NCBI GenBank assembly: GCA_017650925.1 | Contig: JAGCDY010000108.1 | Coordinates: 1-43,517, forward strand | Source: a bacterium | Lineage (GTDB): Bacteria > Auribacterota > UBA3054 | DNA: 43,517 bases | Direction: 5' to 3' | Shown here: positions 36,655 to 43,517 of the stretch, piece after piece | Position numbering within the stretch: position 1 is the first letter of the stretch | Layout: the number at the start of each line of letters is the position of its first letter | Notes under the pieces: model-generated | Told to the model about the DNA's origin: nothing | Databases searched by the model: none | What the model saw: the letters and a program-made list of their open reading frames with translations, nothing else | Translations under genes and position numbers: made by a program

Positions 36655-37215
36655 ATGCCCTACAAAGCACAGATCAAAGAGCTGCAGATAAGCATGCAGA
36701 AAGCCCTGGACCACCTCAGCTACCAGTTCAAGGAGATCAGGACAGGCAAGGCTTCGCCCGGCCTCGTCGAGGACATCAAGGTCGAATACTACGGCGCCAT
36801 GACGCCCATCAAAAGTTTGGCCAACATCACCGTTCCGGAACCCAGGACGCTGAAGATAGAGCCTTTCGACGTCAACAGCGTGCAGTCCATCTGCCGCGCC
36901 ATCCAGGCTTCGCCGATCGGCATTACGCCCGTGGACGACGGCCGCGTCATCAGGCTTCCGATGCCCGAGCTTACCGAGGAGCGCCGCCGCGACCTGACCA
37001 AGCTGACCAAAAAGTACAGCGAGGAGACGAAGGTCAATCTGCGCAACCTGCGCCGCGACGTCATCGAAAAGCTCAAAAAGATGGAAAAGGACAAGATCCT
37101 GACGGAAGACCAGCGCAAGCAGGGCGAAAAGAGCGTGCAGACCGAAACGGATAACTTCAGCAAGAAAGTCGATGAACTTGTCAAAGCCAAGGACACCGAG
37201 ATCATGACGCTGTAA
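36655..37215 (+). CDS. frr: Ribosome recycling factor
   Basis: Acts with EF-G to split the ribosome after termination. The 186-residue protein is the usual length and shows the family's three-helix bundle and hinge: KALDHLSYQFKEIRTGKASP (helix 1), LVEDIKVEYYGAMTPIKSLANITVPEPRTLKIEPFD (domain II), then LTEERRRDLTKLTKKYSEE and NLRNLRRDVIEKLKKMEKDK in helices 2 and 3. The start has an optimal AAGGAGG. The gene is transcribed from its own strong promoter and followed after 22 bases by the triple-STAS gene. The more usual tsf-pyrH-frr neighbourhood is absent. Confidence 0.98.
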   Translation: MPYKAQIKELQISMQKALDHLSYQFKEIRTGKASPGLVEDIKVEYYGAMTPIKSLANITVPEPRTLKIEPFDVNSVQSICRAIQASPIGITPVDDGRVIRLPMPELTEERRRDLTKLTKKYSEETKVNLRNLRRDVIEKLKKMEKDKILTEDQRKQGEKSVQTETDNFSKKVDELVKAKDTEIMTL

Positions 37216-37237: not shown

Positions 37238-38440
37238 ATGTCATTCAACGTTGAGATATCTCCCCGTACCGGAGGAGGACTGGTAGTCGCGCCGAAGGGG
37301 CGCCTTGACAGCGTAACGGCTTCTGAGTTCGAAGCGGCCGTGGACGGCATCCTGAAGGACAAGGTGAAAGTCATCATCCTTGACATGGGAAGCGTGGACT
37401 TTCTGAGCAGCGCCGGCATCAGGGTCATCTTCAAGCTTCAGAAGGGAGTCTTGCAGAACCGCGGCGTGGTGGTCGTTTCCAAGCCCCAGCCCCAGGTGGC
37501 CAGAGTGCTCGAGATCGTGCGCGCCATGCCCAAGGAGCAGATCTTCGAGAACATGGAGGAAGCCGACAAGTACCTCGCGGCCATCCAGGAGAAGGAGTTG
37601 AAAAAGATATCCGCTGAAAAGGGCAGCGAGACCTTTGCGGGAACGAACCTCAAGGTCGTGGTCGAAAGCAGGAAGGAAGGCGGCGTCATCGTTTCGCCGA
37701 CCGGACGCCTTGACACCGTGACCGCTCCGGAACTCGAGGCTGTCGTCGACAAGCTTCTGGCCGAGAAGATCTGCATCGTCATACTGAATATGGAAGGAGT
37801 CAACTTCATCAGCAGCGCCGGCATCAGGGTGATCTTCAAGCTGCAGAAAGGCGTCCTGAAGGAAAAGGGCGTTGTCATCGTCTCTAAGCCGCAGCCCCAG
37901 GTCGCCAAAGTCCTGGAGGTCGTCAGGGCTCTGCCGAGCGACAAGATCTTCCAGGATATCGAAGCCGCCGACAAATACCTCGCCATGCTTCAGCAGAAAG
38001 AGCTTGAGAAGCTGGCCAACAAGGCGATGGACAAGATGACCGAAGAGCCGAAAGTCACGGCGAACGACAATCTCACCATCACCGTTACGCCGAGGGAACC
38101 CAGGGGCTACACCATCTTCCTTAAGGGACGCCTCGACAGCATCACTTCACCGGACTTTGAGAAGACGGTCGACACGATCCTTTCCGCGGAAGCCAAGATC
38201 ATCATCCTGAACCTGGCGGATCTTGTATTCTTGAGCAGCGCCGGCATCAGGGTCATCTTCAAGCTTCAGAAAGGCGTGCTGCAGAAGAAAGGCGCCGTGG
38301 TCATATCCAAGCCGCAGCCCCAGGTCGCCAAGGTCATAGAGATCATCCGCGCCCTGCCCAAGGAGCAGGTCTTCGAGAGCGACGAGGAAGCCGACCGCTA
38401 TCTGGCCATGGTGCAGCGCCAGGAGCTCGGGGAAGCGTAA
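37238..38440 (+). CDS. Protein of three tandem STAS domains
   Basis: A 400-residue protein made of three STAS domains (about 1-125, 136-265 and 278-398), each very like the others. Each has a GRLDSVT-like strand (GRLDSVTASEFE, GRLDTVTAPELE, GRLDSITSPDFE), the conserved SSAGIRVIFKLQKGVL with candidate phospho-serines Ser57/58, Ser192/193 and Ser333/334, then SKPQPQVAKVxEIxRALPKEQ. All three copies keep the serine, so each could bind an anti-sigma kinase. The duplication has stayed highly similar at DNA level. GGAG (AATAAGGAGAAA) precedes the start. The gene lies between frr and nadE, separated by 22 and 4 bases. A triple STAS protein could titrate several kinase molecules, but this is inference. 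Confidence 0.88.
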   Translation: MSFNVEISPRTGGGLVVAPKGRLDSVTASEFEAAVDGILKDKVKVIILDMGSVDFLSSAGIRVIFKLQKGVLQNRGVVVVSKPQPQVARVLEIVRAMPKEQIFENMEEADKYLAAIQEKELKKISAEKGSETFAGTNLKVVVESRKEGGVIVSPTGRLDTVTAPELEAVVDKLLAEKICIVILNMEGVNFISSAGIRVIFKLQKGVLKEKGVVIVSKPQPQVAKVLEVVRALPSDKIFQDIEAADKYLAMLQQKELEKLANKAMDKMTEEPKVTANDNLTITVTPREPRGYTIFLKGRLDSITSPDFEKTVDTILSAEAKIIILNLADLVFLSSAGIRVIFKLQKGVLQKKGAVVISKPQPQVAKVIEIIRALPKEQVFESDEEADRYLAMVQRQELGEA

Positions 38441-38444
38441 TACG

Positions 38445-40301
38445 ATGCCCGACTATGGTTTCGTGAGAGTTTGCGCAGCCGTCCCGAATCTCTCTCTGGG
38501 CGACTGCGCGAAAAACGCTGCTGACCATCTGGCTTTCGCGAGATCAGCCGGCAGGGCCAAGGCTCAGCTAGTCGTTTTCCCGGAGCTTTCGCTTACGGGA
38601 GCGACCTGCGGAGACCTCTTCAGGCAGTCTGGCTTTCCCAAACGCGCGCTGGCGGGCTTAAAGGAGCTCGTGGGAAAATTGCAAAAGTCCGACGCGGTCT
38701 TCGTCGCCGGTCTTCCTTTGGCGCTCGACGGGCGCCTTTACGATTCCGCCTGCGTTTTCCAAAAGGGAAAGATATTGGGCTTCGCCCTGAATTCCATTCC
38801 CAATGACCGCGCTTTCAACGTTCCCGAAAAGGGCTTTGCCGGTTCGGCAAAGATCATGGGGCAGACGGTGAGATACGGGACGGATCTCGTGTTCCGCTCG
38901 GAAAGATTCTCCTTCACCGTAGGCTTCGGCAGCGAGTTGAATGATCCTCTGCTGCCGCTTTCAGGCCGCGCCGCTTTCGGTGAGATCACGGTCGTTATGG
39001 ACGCCGCGCCGGAACTGGCGGGCTCCTATGTAAAATTTAAAAACGTCGCCTCCTCCCTTTCGCTTGTCTGGAAGAGGGGACTCGTCTACGCTTCCTCTTC
39101 TTCCGGCGAATCCAGCACGGACAATTATTACGGCGGAAGAGCTTTCGTTTTTGAGGAGGGCAGGCTTCTTGGCGGCACAAAGCAGTTTCAGGCGGAAGGA
39201 ACACTGACCTGTTCCGACGTCGACTGCGAATTCCTAAGGTTCGACCGTCCTCTTGAGATTCCTCCGAAAGAGAACGTCGTCGATTTTTCCGTTCCGGAAC
39301 TGAAGGAACCAAAACCGACCGTCGCGGTCAATCCCTTCGTTCCCGACGGCGAAGCAGAGCGAGACGCCCGCTGCGAGGAGATCTTTTCCATACAGTGCGG
39401 CGGCCTGGCCAGGCGCCTCGCCCATACGAAGGCGAAACGCGCCGTAATAGGCGTCTCCGGCGGATTAGACTCCACTCTGGCGCTGCTTGTCGCCAGAGAA
39501 GCCCAGGGGCTGCGCGGACTCGGTCCGGGATCGATCCTCGGCATCACGATGCCGTGCTTCGGAACTTCCGGCCGCACGAAGAGCAACGCCTGCGCGCTGA
39601 TGGAGGAGCTGGGGATAGAATTCAGAACGATAGACATCCACTCTTCTCTGGAGCGCCATTTCAAGGACATTTCCCATCCCAAGGATCTTCATGACGCGGC
39701 CTACGAGAACGCCCAGGCCAGGGAAAGGACGCAGATACTGATGGACGTCGCCAATTCCGAAGCGGGTCTGGCCGTCGGCACGGGAGACCTTTCCGAAGCG
39801 GCGCTCGGCTGGGCGACGTACGGCGGCGACCAGATGGCGATGTACAACGTCAACTGCGGGATCCCGAAAACGCTAGTAAGAGCGGTCGTCGCCTGGTACG
39901 CGAAAAAGGTCGGCGGAAAGATCGGCAAGATCCTTTCCGACATCATAGCAACGCCTATTAGTCCCGAGCTTTTGCCCGCTGTAAAGGGCGAAGCCACTCA
40001 GAAGACTGAGGACTCGGTCGGACCATACGAGATTCACGACTTCTTCATCTACCACATGCTGAGGCGCGGCGCGACGCCCGGCAAACTACTCTTTTTGGCT
40101 AACGCGGCTTTTGCGGGGCGCTTCAGTCCCGAAAAGATCAAAGCCTGCCTGAAAATTTTCCTCGGCCGTTTCTTCAGCCAGCAGTTCAAGCGCTCCTGCT
40201 CTCCCGACGGCGTTGGGACCGGCAGCGTTTCGCTTTCCCCCCGGGCGGGGCTCAGGATGCCTTCCGACATCTCCTCCGCGCCGTGGCTGGATGAAGTTTG
40301 A
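38445..40301 (+). CDS. nadE: NAD synthetase with degenerate glutaminase domain
   Basis: Makes NAD from nicotinate adenine dinucleotide, ATP and ammonia. The 618-residue protein has the two-domain layout of glutamine-dependent NadE. The C-terminal synthetase domain is intact: PP-loop VSGGLDSTLA (337-346), MPCFGTSGRTKSNA, DLSEAALGWATYGGDQMAMYN, EDSVGPYEIHDFF and KRSCSPDGVGTGSVSLSP. The N-terminal nitrilase-like domain keeps FPELSLTG with Glu47 and GESSTDNYYGG, but the expected Lys and Cys are missing: the KTYLPNY region reads ALNSIPN (114-120), and the EICEDLW region reads GFGSELND (160-167), putting Gly162 where Cys should be. No cysteine occurs between residues 104 and 255. It may depend on free ammonia. 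Start has no clear ribosome binding site and is 4 bases from the triple-STAS stop. Confidence 0.9.
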   Translation: MPDYGFVRVCAAVPNLSLGDCAKNAADHLAFARSAGRAKAQLVVFPELSLTGATCGDLFRQSGFPKRALAGLKELVGKLQKSDAVFVAGLPLALDGRLYDSACVFQKGKILGFALNSIPNDRAFNVPEKGFAGSAKIMGQTVRYGTDLVFRSERFSFTVGFGSELNDPLLPLSGRAAFGEITVVMDAAPELAGSYVKFKNVASSLSLVWKRGLVYASSSSGESSTDNYYGGRAFVFEEGRLLGGTKQFQAEGTLTCSDVDCEFLRFDRPLEIPPKENVVDFSVPELKEPKPTVAVNPFVPDGEAERDARCEEIFSIQCGGLARRLAHTKAKRAVIGVSGGLDSTLALLVAREAQGLRGLGPGSILGITMPCFGTSGRTKSNACALMEELGIEFRTIDIHSSLERHFKDISHPKDLHDAAYENAQARERTQILMDVANSEAGLAVGTGDLSEAALGWATYGGDQMAMYNVNCGIPKTLVRAVVAWYAKKVGGKIGKILSDIIATPISPELLPAVKGEATQKTEDSVGPYEIHDFFIYHMLRRGATPGKLLFLANAAFAGRFSPEKIKACLKIFLGRFFSQQFKRSCSPDGVGTGSVSLSPRAGLRMPSDISSAPWLDEV

Positions 40302-40374: not shown

Positions 40375-43300
40375 ATGAGTGAAAAAGCGCTGAGAAGACC
40401 TTCGGGGGTGGCCTTGCTGGCTGTTTTGACCGTTCTCACGGTCCTTTCGCTTCTGGCCGCGACGTTCGCCGCCATGATGACGATGGAGGAGCAGGCCGGC
40501 AACATCAGCCTCAACCGTTCGCAGTCCGACATGCTCGCGCAGTCCGCCATCGAGCACGTCTACGGCCTTTTGCGCCAGGACAGTATCGACAGCCCGGAGT
40601 ACGACGGCTACGACGAGACCTGGTGCCAGACCTTCAAGCCGCGCCAGGGCGAGGAGCGCGTCAATGTTGACGGTGACAAGGGCGGGGATTACGCTTGGGC
40701 CCGCTGGATCTACGTCAGGGACAATTCCGGAAAGCCCATAGGCCGTTACGCCGTCATGGTCGAGGACGAGCACGCCAAAATAAATCTTCACACCGCTTCC
40801 GCACTTGGCAAAAATCAGCAGAACGAAGGCTTCGGAACTTTCGAGGTCATGCTGACGGACGGCGACAAAAGGGGACTGCCGCTGACATTGGAAGCCGGCA
40901 AGCGTTTGATAAAGTACCGCTACGGCAGGGACGAGAAGCCGGGCCAGGCCAACGTTGACGACAACCTGACCGTCACCCAGTACGGCAGCGACTCCATCGA
41001 CAACAACGCCAACGGCCTTTTCGACGAGGACGGCGAAGGCGTCGACGAGCCGGAGGAATACAATCCGAATCACCTCATCTGGGACGACATGGCCTTCCAG
41101 TCGCTTAGGGAAGCGCTGGCGGTCGCTCTGGGCGGCGAGCCCACGAGCGTTTCCCAGGTCAACGCCTTCAAGCACCTCTCAACGCTTTTCAACACCTCCC
41201 AGGAACTCTATTACGAAAAGTCGGCCAAGGCCCTGAGGCGCTCGCTCGACATAAACCACGCGGAATTGAAGCAGCTCAGGCGCGCTCTTAGGAACGCCAA
41301 CAACGAGTCGCCTTTCGAGCCTTCATCCTCCAGGATGAGGAGCTTGATCGTGAACCTTCTCGACTATACGGACGAGAATCACACCTTAACGACCGTCGAC
41401 ACGACTTACGGCGTGGAGTCCGTCTGCTTCAACGAGATCATGGCGCACGACGGCAGCTGGATCCGCGAGACCGACTGGTGCGGCTGGAGTTTCCCGACCC
41501 AATCAGGCAGCGGCGCCGCCTGCCCGGAGCATGTTCTCTCCGCCAACCAGTTTTACGGCCACAAATACAAGGGTCTCAACTATACTTTCCGCTGGAGGAT
41601 CGGCAACGTTCACAGCAGCGGCAACAATTGGACGCTGAAACTGGAAAAGCCGAGAAGGGCGCCCAACCGGTTCGACGAATACATGAGGTGCGAGAAAAGC
41701 GGCTGGTACGCCGATTTCTGGAAGGGCGCGACCTGCATCGTCTACAAGACCTCCAGCGAATCCGATAAGCAAGGCTATTACATCAGCGAGAGCAAGGCCG
41801 GCAACCAGCATGAATTCACGATAAAAGGCGGCGGCAATAACGGAAAAAGCTTCATGGCGCAAGTGGCATCCAACCTCGTCAGCGCCACGGTGTGCCTCTA
41901 CAGCGGCTGGACTCACGACGGCGCCATGTGGTGCGATCTTCCCAGCCAGAACGAGTGCTTCTATTTCCGTCCTCTGAACCGCAAGCAGGAAAAATACTAC
42001 TACCGCGTCTACAACGCCAGTCAGGCCTTCCTGCCCTCCATCGGCTACGGGAAATCCAACATCAGGGAAATGGACTTGGACGGCATCCCCGCCAAACACA
42101 GCGTGCAGGAGGAAGAGAAGGACAAGAAGAACCATTATCTTCTGAAGTATCCCTACAAGGACGGCAAGGCGCAGAAGCCCAATAGGGAAGGCTATATCGA
42201 GGTGCTCATAACCTCTTCCAAGAGATGCCGGAAATCCGGCTCCGGAAGGGGAGGCAAGAACATCAACTACAGCGACGCGATGTACTTCATCCGCCCGGAC
42301 ATCGTCGAGCTCATCAACATTTCCTCCTATCCCATAAGCTTAAGGAACTGGCAGGTGGTCGTCAACACCGGTCTGGAAGCCGAGCTTCTGGCGACCATCG
42401 ATGTGGCGGACCACTACAGCAAGGCCAGGAGCGGTTTTTACGAGGATCCCAATCCCATCATAGAGCCGAACGGTTACTTCTATCTCACCAATAACAGGGA
42501 GATCTTCGACCTCGAGTACTGCAACGGCAACGGCAATTACGGCCGCAGCCAGAAGACGGTCATCCCGGTCTTCGAACTTCCCGATGAGGACTGGGGGATC
42601 CTTTACGACGTGACGAGAGTGACGGGGAGCGACATTACGGTCTCCGGCGCGAACTGGCATCACGACCAGCTGGAAGGCGAACTTATAGAGTTCGTTTCCG
42701 ACCGTCAGCCCACGGCCAAGGCGGACATTCCCAACGGCATGATCAAGTACGTCTACGGCAACAACAGCAACAAGCTGGACCTTTCCGGCAGCGACCCCAT
42801 CGGCAGCGGACTGAAAGTAGGCGACAAGATCAGGGTGAGAGGCCTTCCCCGTCAGGGCGGCTTCGTTTCCTTCACCCTGAAGAACGAGTACGGCCAGGTG
42901 GCCGCCCGCACCACGGAATACGGTTCCGTGGAGGAGGAGGAGTTCGGCTATTCCACGGAAAAGGACGACCCGGCCTACTACACCTGGAAAAAGCTTTCCA
43001 AGCCTTCCTTCGGCGGCAACAAGCGCGAGGCCGAGAGCCGCAGGATGAAGAGAAACGAAAAGAACCAGACGCACATCAAGAACGCCGGCATGGCCAACAT
43101 TTCTGAGATCCAGAGGATCAAGACCGGCGACAACTGGGAGAACGTGGGCGGCGCCGGCGGGCGCTCCGACATGAAGACCATCAAGGCCGTGGGCAAATAT
43201 TTCACCACCACCGGCGTACGACTGGACGTGGAGGAGGAGGGCGTGCATCTTTCCGGCTGGGCCCCCGCCTACGGCACCGTGGCCACGGCCAACGGCAACG

Positions 43301-43517
43301 TGGTGTCCGTCTCCGACGTCGCCTGGGAGCCCGACACCTGGAAGGGACACACCCTGCGTGTGATGTCCGGCAGCCAGAGGGAGGAGAAGATCCCCGTCAT
43401 CAACAGTTCCCGAACCGGCCTTACGGTGGACGGCCTGACCAGCCCCGGCGAGAAGCAGCTGAAGCTTAAGAAAGGCGACAAGATCAGCGTTGGCCCGGGC
43501 TACGCCACGCCTTTTTA
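40375..43517 (+). CDS. Very large GspK-like minor pseudopilin, truncated by the window end
   Basis: Open for 1047 codons to the end of the window with no stop. The N-terminus RRPSGVALLAVLTVLTVLSL is a type IV prepilin or pseudopilin signal, with cleavage after Gly11 and Ala instead of Glu at position +5, which is the known pattern of GspK. GspK sits at the tip of the type II secretion pseudopilus; known GspK proteins are about 320 residues, so this is more than three times larger. Residues about 204-230 (GSDSIDNNANGLFDEDGEGV) are an Asp-rich, calcium-binding-like loop. Residues about 638-720 (IVELINISSYPISLRNWQVV, then EPNGYFYLTNN) resemble the lamin-tail LTD domain. Further beta domains follow. 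The ATG follows GTAGGGAATA. Type II secretion or pilus assembly genes should lie downstream, outside the window. Confidence 0.78.
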   Translation, partial: MSEKALRRPSGVALLAVLTVLTVLSLLAATFAAMMTMEEQAGNISLNRSQSDMLAQSAIEHVYGLLRQDSIDSPEYDGYDETWCQTFKPRQGEERVNVDGDKGGDYAWARWIYVRDNSGKPIGRYAVMVEDEHAKINLHTASALGKNQQNEGFGTFEVMLTDGDKRGLPLTLEAGKRLIKYRYGRDEKPGQANVDDNLTVTQYGSDSIDNNANGLFDEDGEGVDEPEEYNPNHLIWDDMAFQSLREALAVALGGEPTSVSQVNAFKHLSTLFNTSQELYYEKSAKALRRSLDINHAELKQLRRALRNANNESPFEPSSSRMRSLIVNLLDYTDENHTLTTVDTTYGVESVCFNEIMAHDGSWIRETDWCGWSFPTQSGSGAACPEHVLSANQFYGHKYKGLNYTFRWRIGNVHSSGNNWTLKLEKPRRAPNRFDEYMRCEKSGWYADFWKGATCIVYKTSSESDKQGYYISESKAGNQHEFTIKGGGNNGKSFMAQVASNLVSATVCLYSGWTHDGAMWCDLPSQNECFYFRPLNRKQEKYYYRVYNASQAFLPSIGYGKSNIREMDLDGIPAKHSVQEEEKDKKNHYLLKYPYKDGKAQKPNREGYIEVLITSSKRCRKSGSGRGGKNINYSDAMYFIRPDIVELINISSYPISLRNWQVVVNTGLEAELLATIDVADHYSKARSGFYEDPNPIIEPNGYFYLTNNREIFDLEYCNGNGNYGRSQKTVIPVFELPDEDWGILYDVTRVTGSDITVSGANWHHDQLEGELIEFVSDRQPTAKADIPNGMIKYVYGNNSNKLDLSGSDPIGSGLKVGDKIRVRGLPRQGGFVSFTLKNEYGQVAARTTEYGSVEEEEFGYSTEKDDPAYYTWKKLSKPSFGGNKREAESRRMKRNEKNQTHIKNAGMANISEIQRIKTGDNWENVGGAGGRSDMKTIKAVGKYFTTTGVRLDVEEEGVHLSGWAPAYGTVATANGNVVSVSDVAWEPDTWKGHTLRVMSGSQREEKIPVINSSRTGLTVDGLTSPGEKQLKLKKGDKISVGPGYATPF

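Follow-up and report, generated by a model that had tools for sequence, protein, structure and literature searches.

A two-domain NAD synthetase with a dismantled glutaminase half and a putative free-ammonia supply

The nadE gene of the stretch of bacterial DNA analysed here (the window, 43,517 nucleotides) encodes a two-domain NAD synthetase whose glutaminase half has lost the catalytic lysine and cysteine. We regard the protein as a putative free-ammonia NAD synthetase in which the glutaminase half is kept as a scaffold, as in human CPS1, and we give this reading, drawn from sequence comparison and a structure model, a probability of about 0.8. The synthetase half would amidate nicotinic acid adenine dinucleotide with free ammonia, and the N-terminal nitrilase half would no longer hydrolyse glutamine. 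The latter would persist as the foundation of the synthetase half: in NadE of this type the octamer has a core of glutaminase domains, which touch the synthetase via helices and the C-terminal loop. From the surrounding solution, ammonia would reach the synthetase site either via the former tunnel or alongside it. For the window NadE we infer the reaction, the oligomeric state and the path of the ammonia. Published descriptions of related enzymes report a core of glutaminase domains in the human NadE octamer and the use of free ammonia, too, by Mtb NadE (PMC6946656). De Ingeniis 2012 names the contacts of the S-domain with the glutaminase (PMC3376133), and of these the C-terminal loop is kept in the window NadE. 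The features discussed below, all on the + strand, are the following.

36655..37215, +, frr, ribosome recycling factor, which opens the conserved run frr - STAS x3 - nadE
37238..38440, +, triple-STAS protein, which stops 4 bases before nadE
38445..40301, +, nadE, two-domain NAD synthetase of the octameric (Mtb-like, PRK02628) type, 618 aa (open reading frame, profiles and phmmer)
38445..39248, +, nitrilase-type glutaminase half, residues 1-268, catalytically dismantled, predicted to be well folded (Pfam CN_hydrolase and model)
38583..38585, +, Glu47, the sole remaining residue of the catalytic triad (alignments)
38790..38792, +, Asn116, replacing the catalytic Lys (Mtb Lys121; phmmer and MAFFT)
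38796..38801, +, shortened YRE regulatory loop, between about Ile118 and Pro119 (the place of the gap differs by aligner)
38928..38930, +, Gly162, replacing the catalytic Cys (Mtb Cys176; phmmer, MAFFT and model)
39105..39122, +, GESSTD segment, residues 221-226, kept in the genus together with the dead site (alignment)
39333..40298, +, synthetase half, residues 297-618, with SGGLDST and Asp462 (Pfam and 29-sequence alignment)
40182..40298, +, extended C-terminal loop, residues 580-618 (alignments; the Mtb counterpart contacts the glutaminase domain, PMC3376133)

The window NadE scored 624.5 bits with the NCBIfam model PRK02628 (cut-off 473); intact relatives from the same order scored 923-941 bits. 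The Pfam NAD_synthase profile (PF02540) matched residues 319-532 with 95.1 bits (cut-off 21), and the CN_hydrolase match, at residues 19-111, was weaker (31.6 bits). In a phmmer search of the PDB, Mtb NadE (3dla and its relatives) matched residues 4-618 with an E value of about 1e-99. The synthetase half, which the earlier note had described as intact, retains SGGLDST, with invariant SGG-DS columns, and the other invariant columns of the 29-sequence alignment. Asp462 corresponds to Mtb Asp497, the last ammonia-transfer site (role: PMC6946656), and the extended C-terminal loop that belongs to the definition of the octameric NadE-Gln type (PMC3376133) is present. By sequence and fold the protein is a member of the PRK02628 family, but it lacks the feature that confers glutamine dependence on this family.

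The order frr, triple STAS, nadE was the same as in the window in all seven genus loci compared (L005, L006, L007, L050, L051, L058, L059), and the three tandem STAS domains of the protein between frr and nadE are conserved across the genus. Downstream, at 40375-43515 (+), lies a long protein that is open at the window end; its N-terminus was read as type-II-secretion-like, and its only domain match was a sub-threshold one to the Lamin Tail Domain.

The earlier note had found Glu47 in place and the catalytic Lys and Cys missing, and the alignment with Mycobacterium NadE that it called for bore this out: neither phmmer nor MAFFT placed a Lys or a Cys at these triad sites. Glu47, in VVFPELSL, faces Mtb Glu52 (phmmer). 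Mtb VPK(121)SYLP pairs with AL-N(116)-S-IP, Mtb EIC(176)EDM pairs with GF-G(162)-SEL, and the same pairs were obtained with both programs. Instead of the Glu-Lys-Cys triad of the octameric NadE-Gln type the window NadE thus has Glu47, Asn116 and Gly162. In the AF2 model Gly162 stands directly after a predicted strand (156-161) and Asn116 after the strand 109-115. The region between residues 104 and 255 is free of cysteine, as had been stated, the cysteines being at 10, 21, 55, 103, 256, 261 and later positions.

Other residues of the glutamine site are replaced as well. With Mtb NadE as the ruler, none of the six full-length proteins of the genus (window, L005, L006, L007, L050, L051) keeps Tyr58 (replaced by Ala or Thr), Lys121 (by Asn), Cys176 (by Gly, Asp or Leu), Glu177 (by Ser), Ser203, Lys/Arg209 or, in the YRE loop, Tyr127. 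Phe/Trp180 is replaced in five of them, L007 keeping Phe. Six relatives from the order retain these positions in a form of their own. In Mtb NadE the YRE loop touches the glutamine ligand and relays signals to the synthetase (PMC6946656); in the window NadE it does not have its usual form: the region is ~6 residues shorter, and Tyr127 corresponds to Asp or to a gap depending on the aligner, with a gap in MAFFT and Asp-Arg-Ala-Phe paired with Tyr-Arg-Glu-Phe in phmmer.

The class of the window's genome comprised 15 genomes in five genera, eight of the window's genus and seven order relatives (L047, L048 and L049 are from the same genomes as L005-L007 and were counted once). The loss proved to be shared across the genus, a point that the earlier note had left to be checked. 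Lys was lost in 8/8 genus genomes, and Cys, replaced by Gly, Asp or Leu, in 7/7 that reach the site; the G004 gene ends at a contig end before it, and the G007 gene is split over two contigs, its N-terminal piece covering all three triad sites. Glu was also lost in 3/8 genomes, being Arg in L006 (G002) and Lys in L007 and L059 (G003, G004). Since Lys and Cys are lost genus-wide, and Glu in three genomes, a single residue could not rescue the site. An assembly error or chimera was ruled out because sister genomes from other animals (water buffalo, yak, sheep rumen) share the loss. E-K-C was retained in all six order relatives having NadE (L054 is one of these); NadE was not found in the seventh, G014, which is 64% complete. 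All 60 top-scoring relatives from two other groups retained E-K-C as well, in a sample biased toward intact copies because it was chosen by score.

The claim that the domain scaffold has been kept is well supported by purifying selection on the glutaminase half, by its AF2 fold and by the match of the model to C176A Mtb NadE. Omega, dN and dS were obtained as Nei-Gojobori counts in two species groups of the genus. Within the groups, omega was 0.13-0.23 for the glutaminase half and 0.065-0.12 for the synthetase half in full comparisons; L058 gave a synthetase omega of 0.12-0.17, from 65 codons only. Between the two groups (window compared with L050 and L051) the values were 0.30-0.32 and 0.16-0.18, respectively, at a dS of 1.6-1.8, which is near saturation. 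The glutaminase-to-synthetase ratio of dN was about 2.0-3.4 within the groups (full comparisons) and 1.6-1.7 across them; for intact order relatives it was about 0.8-1.3 (six pairs, two without usable dS). The glutaminase half is therefore relaxed but not free: it is under purifying selection, and its rate of change is two to three times that of the synthetase half. Part of its faster change may reflect ordinary differences between the domains, although the order relatives do not show it. In the six full-length genus proteins 37% of residues 1-268 are invariant vs 59% of residues 294-618.

The AF2 monomer model, built from the 29-row alignment, had a pLDDT of 89.2 and a pTM of 0.87, with most of the glutaminase half above 90. 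Its best structural match was C176A Mtb NadE (3szg_D; Z 43.9, 1.8 A over 595 residues); Foldseek likewise put Mtb NadE first, and nitrilase structures matched the model up to about residue 269.

The earlier note had proposed either free ammonia or an unknown partner as the nitrogen donor. This stands, and of the two, free ammonia is probably the donor, because no nitrilase-type candidate, no second NadE (in the window's genome) and no Amt was found. PF00795 (CN_hydrolase) matched two places per genome in 8/8 genus genomes, the dead domain and a strong match of about 90-99 bits. In the window's genome, where its sequence was read, the latter reads as an apolipoprotein N-acyltransferase (Lnt-like). 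The PF00795 search, which covers nitrilase-type enzymes, thus yielded no candidate for a stand-alone nitrilase-type glutaminase in the eight genomes. A second NadE was not found in the window's genome with the PF02540 profile, whose other matches there were read as GuaA, a GuaA paralogue and an MnmA-like protein. Of the checks proposed earlier, the one for another glutaminase was thus covered for the nitrilase type in the eight genomes, and the one for an ammonia-dependent nadE in the window's genome. The genus genomes are MAGs, 83-93% complete, which makes the absence of a partner from any single genome less secure.

PF00909 (Amt) was found in 0/8 genus genomes, in 4/7 order relatives and in 14/14 controls. 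The absence of Amt in the genus fits an ammonia-rich niche, as does a strong match to a GDH-type (ELFV) dehydrogenase in 6/8 genus genomes. In the rumen, ammonia is present in the fluid at millimolar levels. Amt-negative genomes also occur among the intact order relatives (3/7, though these are only 64-76% complete), and this counts against the free-ammonia reading. A general loss of glutamine use was ruled out: CarA, GuaA, PyrG, HisH and PurQ of the window's genome, named partly from sequence reading and with L187 not counted, keep their Cys by eye. These class-I amidotransferases indicate that the cell still uses glutamine elsewhere, which counts against the free-ammonia reading.

Two side observations concern other amidotransferases of this genome. 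A second GuaA-like protein of ~419 aa (G000:C62; L003, 41315-41542 and its frame) occurs beside the normal GuaA (L002). Its synthetase part is full (TIGR00884, 480.7 bits), and its N-terminal glutaminase part is short and gave no guaA_Nterm match; judged from these matches, it may be another ammonia-fed amidotransferase. Two CTP synthase genes lie close together at G000:C57:3646-5994 (L190, L191), the second of which is diverged (691.9 vs 832.8 bits) yet keeps GICAGM.

The unknown partner of the earlier note could be a separate, non-nitrilase glutaminase that binds to the dead domain and supplies the former tunnel with ammonia. Such docking would suit the kept contact loop on the S side and the selection that the genus still spends on the glutaminase domain, but no nitrilase-type candidate was found in any of the eight genus genomes, and none of the neighbours of nadE (frr, the triple-STAS protein and a protein without a Pfam family over the cut-off) is a glutaminase. 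Moreover, the genome-context survey described by De Ingeniis 2012 is reported not to have found a non-orthologous G-subunit (PMC3376133). We consider a docking partner unlikely.

The loss of the catalytic Cys is not confined to the window's genus. One scan of 41 named loci gave 40 that could be scored, of which 12 were without Cys and 28 kept it (L040 starts inside the gene and was unscorable; L043 has a broken frame and was counted as intact, its first frame showing E-K-C). The 12 comprise three loci of the genus, Prevotella (L018, Ser), Candidatus Alistipes equi (L023, Gly), a Lachnospiraceae bacterium (L036, Gly) and others from Clostridia and Lentisphaeria. In a sample of the Lentisphaeria class (the class of G063, 128 genomes) 37/40 low-scoring copies were without Cys, L207 and L210 among them being poorly aligned at the triad; this is not a rate, because the copies had been chosen for low score. 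Among dimeric-type NadE sequences Cys was absent in 3 of the 14 that reach the site (L061 Ser, L066 Ser, L078 Gly); L071 and L072 do not reach it. L061 and L066 retain Glu and Lys. L078 (G062) is the second, dimeric-type NadE of Candidatus Alistipes equi, so that both NadE copies of this organism lack the Cys.

In seven genomes of the Lentisphaeria sample (G371, G430, G432, G437, G438, G450, G478) a higher-scoring NadE copy occurs beside the dead one. In three of these, G432, G438 and G450, the dead copies are L227, L228 and L232, for which a new role is possible. Such pairs in some Lentisphaeria genomes, like the purifying selection and like GESSTD and other invariant segments, would also be expected if the pseudo-glutaminase had become regulatory, for example by sensing a ligand and controlling the synthetase. 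Glu222 is invariant across all 29 aligned proteins. However, the GES(S/T)TD segment also occurs in intact enzymes and may therefore be structural, and the YRE loop, the communication element, is shortened. A regulatory role for the domain seems improbable to us.

Hydrolysis of glutamine or another amide by a rearranged site, with Ser163 as a possible nucleophile, is more doubtful still. Ser163 is conserved in all six full-length genus proteins and is the sole candidate for a catalytic residue shifted by one place, but both aligners put Gly162 at the Cys site, and Ser163 occupies the position of Mtb Glu177, not that of Cys176; besides, Lys is lost in every genus genome and Glu in 3/8. That nadE is degenerating and NAD comes from a different route is scarcely credible: one half shows relaxed change, but the synthetase omega is 0.065-0.12 within two species groups, the frame is intact in the six full-length genus genes and the window's genome has a single NadE.

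Whether the losses share one origin was examined on trees of the synthetase half. A single clade of all dead rows was rejected on the 50-row tree (p-AU 9.3e-5), and the fewest state changes were 6 on 50 rows and 10 on 123 rows. The 50-row tree was drawn from the 123-row tree, many forks are weak and the parsimony counts allow regain; the 123-row tree left out L040, L043, L058, L059 and 25 Bacteroidaceae rows (L132-L156). Vertical inheritance, with the genus and its order relatives as a clade, was rejected (p-AU 0.0106) and, with three more rows included, not rejected (0.162). A clade of the genus with L012 and L020, both dead, was allowed (p-AU 0.579), and a grouping of the genus with L223, L227 and L229 was disfavoured (p-AU 0.0169); some of the tested groups were chosen once the tree was known. 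On these results the site may have been lost within the genus or may have come to it in an already dead copy.

A herbivore gut was given in the record title for 8/12 dead vs 3/28 intact named loci (one-sided Fisher p 0.0007; p = 0.0045 with the window's genus counted once). Habitat was assigned from titles alone, the sample is biased and the rows are non-independent, and the link between dead NadE and the herbivore gut is a lead.

The octameric, glutamine-dependent Mtb NadE (3dla; C176A, 3szg) has the same domain order, family model, fold, synthetase motifs and C-terminal contact loop as the window NadE. In the latter, unlike in Mtb NadE, the YRE loop is lost together with the catalytic Lys and Cys and the majority of the residues at the glutamine site. 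With the ammonia-dependent, single-domain NadE (type N, De Ingeniis 2012) the window NadE would share free ammonia as the nitrogen donor, and as in type N no separate nitrilase-type G-subunit was found in the genome (8/8 genus genomes). In contrast to type N, which has no glutaminase domain, it still carries the glutaminase half and the contact loop. The type C enzyme of Thermus thermophilus is described as a two-subunit NadE made of a synthetase of the same family and a nitrilase-type partner (PMC3376133); there the G-subunit is separate and active, whereas in the window NadE it is fused and inactive and no separate one was found.

Human CPS1 is reported to carry an inactive ancestral glutaminase domain, with Cys changed to Ser, to use outside ammonia and to have a partly blocked tunnel (PMC4655335). 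The window NadE likewise keeps an ancestral glutaminase domain without the catalytic Cys and would likewise use outside ammonia. CPS1 is a different enzyme with another class of glutaminase, and the loss in NadE is wider than its Cys-to-Ser change. No carbamoyl phosphate synthetase model in Pfam or NCBIfam matched the window NadE, and CPS1 is an analogue only.

In the texts consulted, two NadE papers sort the enzymes by the presence of a glutaminase domain or subunit, and De Ingeniis 2012 presents the contact elements as a hallmark that is both necessary and sufficient for two-component enzymes (PMC3376133). The window NadE has the domain and the C-terminal loop without the chemistry, and an annotation based on architecture would therefore name the wrong nitrogen donor. 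Among open-licence papers, judged by titles and abstract openings, none on a fused NadE with a lost triad was found. We give even odds to a wider proposal, that two-domain, glutaminase-dead, ammonia-fed enzymes make up a third class of NAD synthetase, which would have emerged repeatedly, in different phyla of animal-gut bacteria (the window's genus, Prevotella, Alistipes, Clostridia, Lentisphaeria), and in the window's genus along with the absence of Amt. Architecture would then no longer tell the nitrogen donor, and decay of the NadE glutaminase site would be a genomic mark of high-ammonia life. The repeated loss provides natural experiments on the non-catalytic roles of the glutaminase domain and makes the use of free ammonia by NadE in vivo testable.
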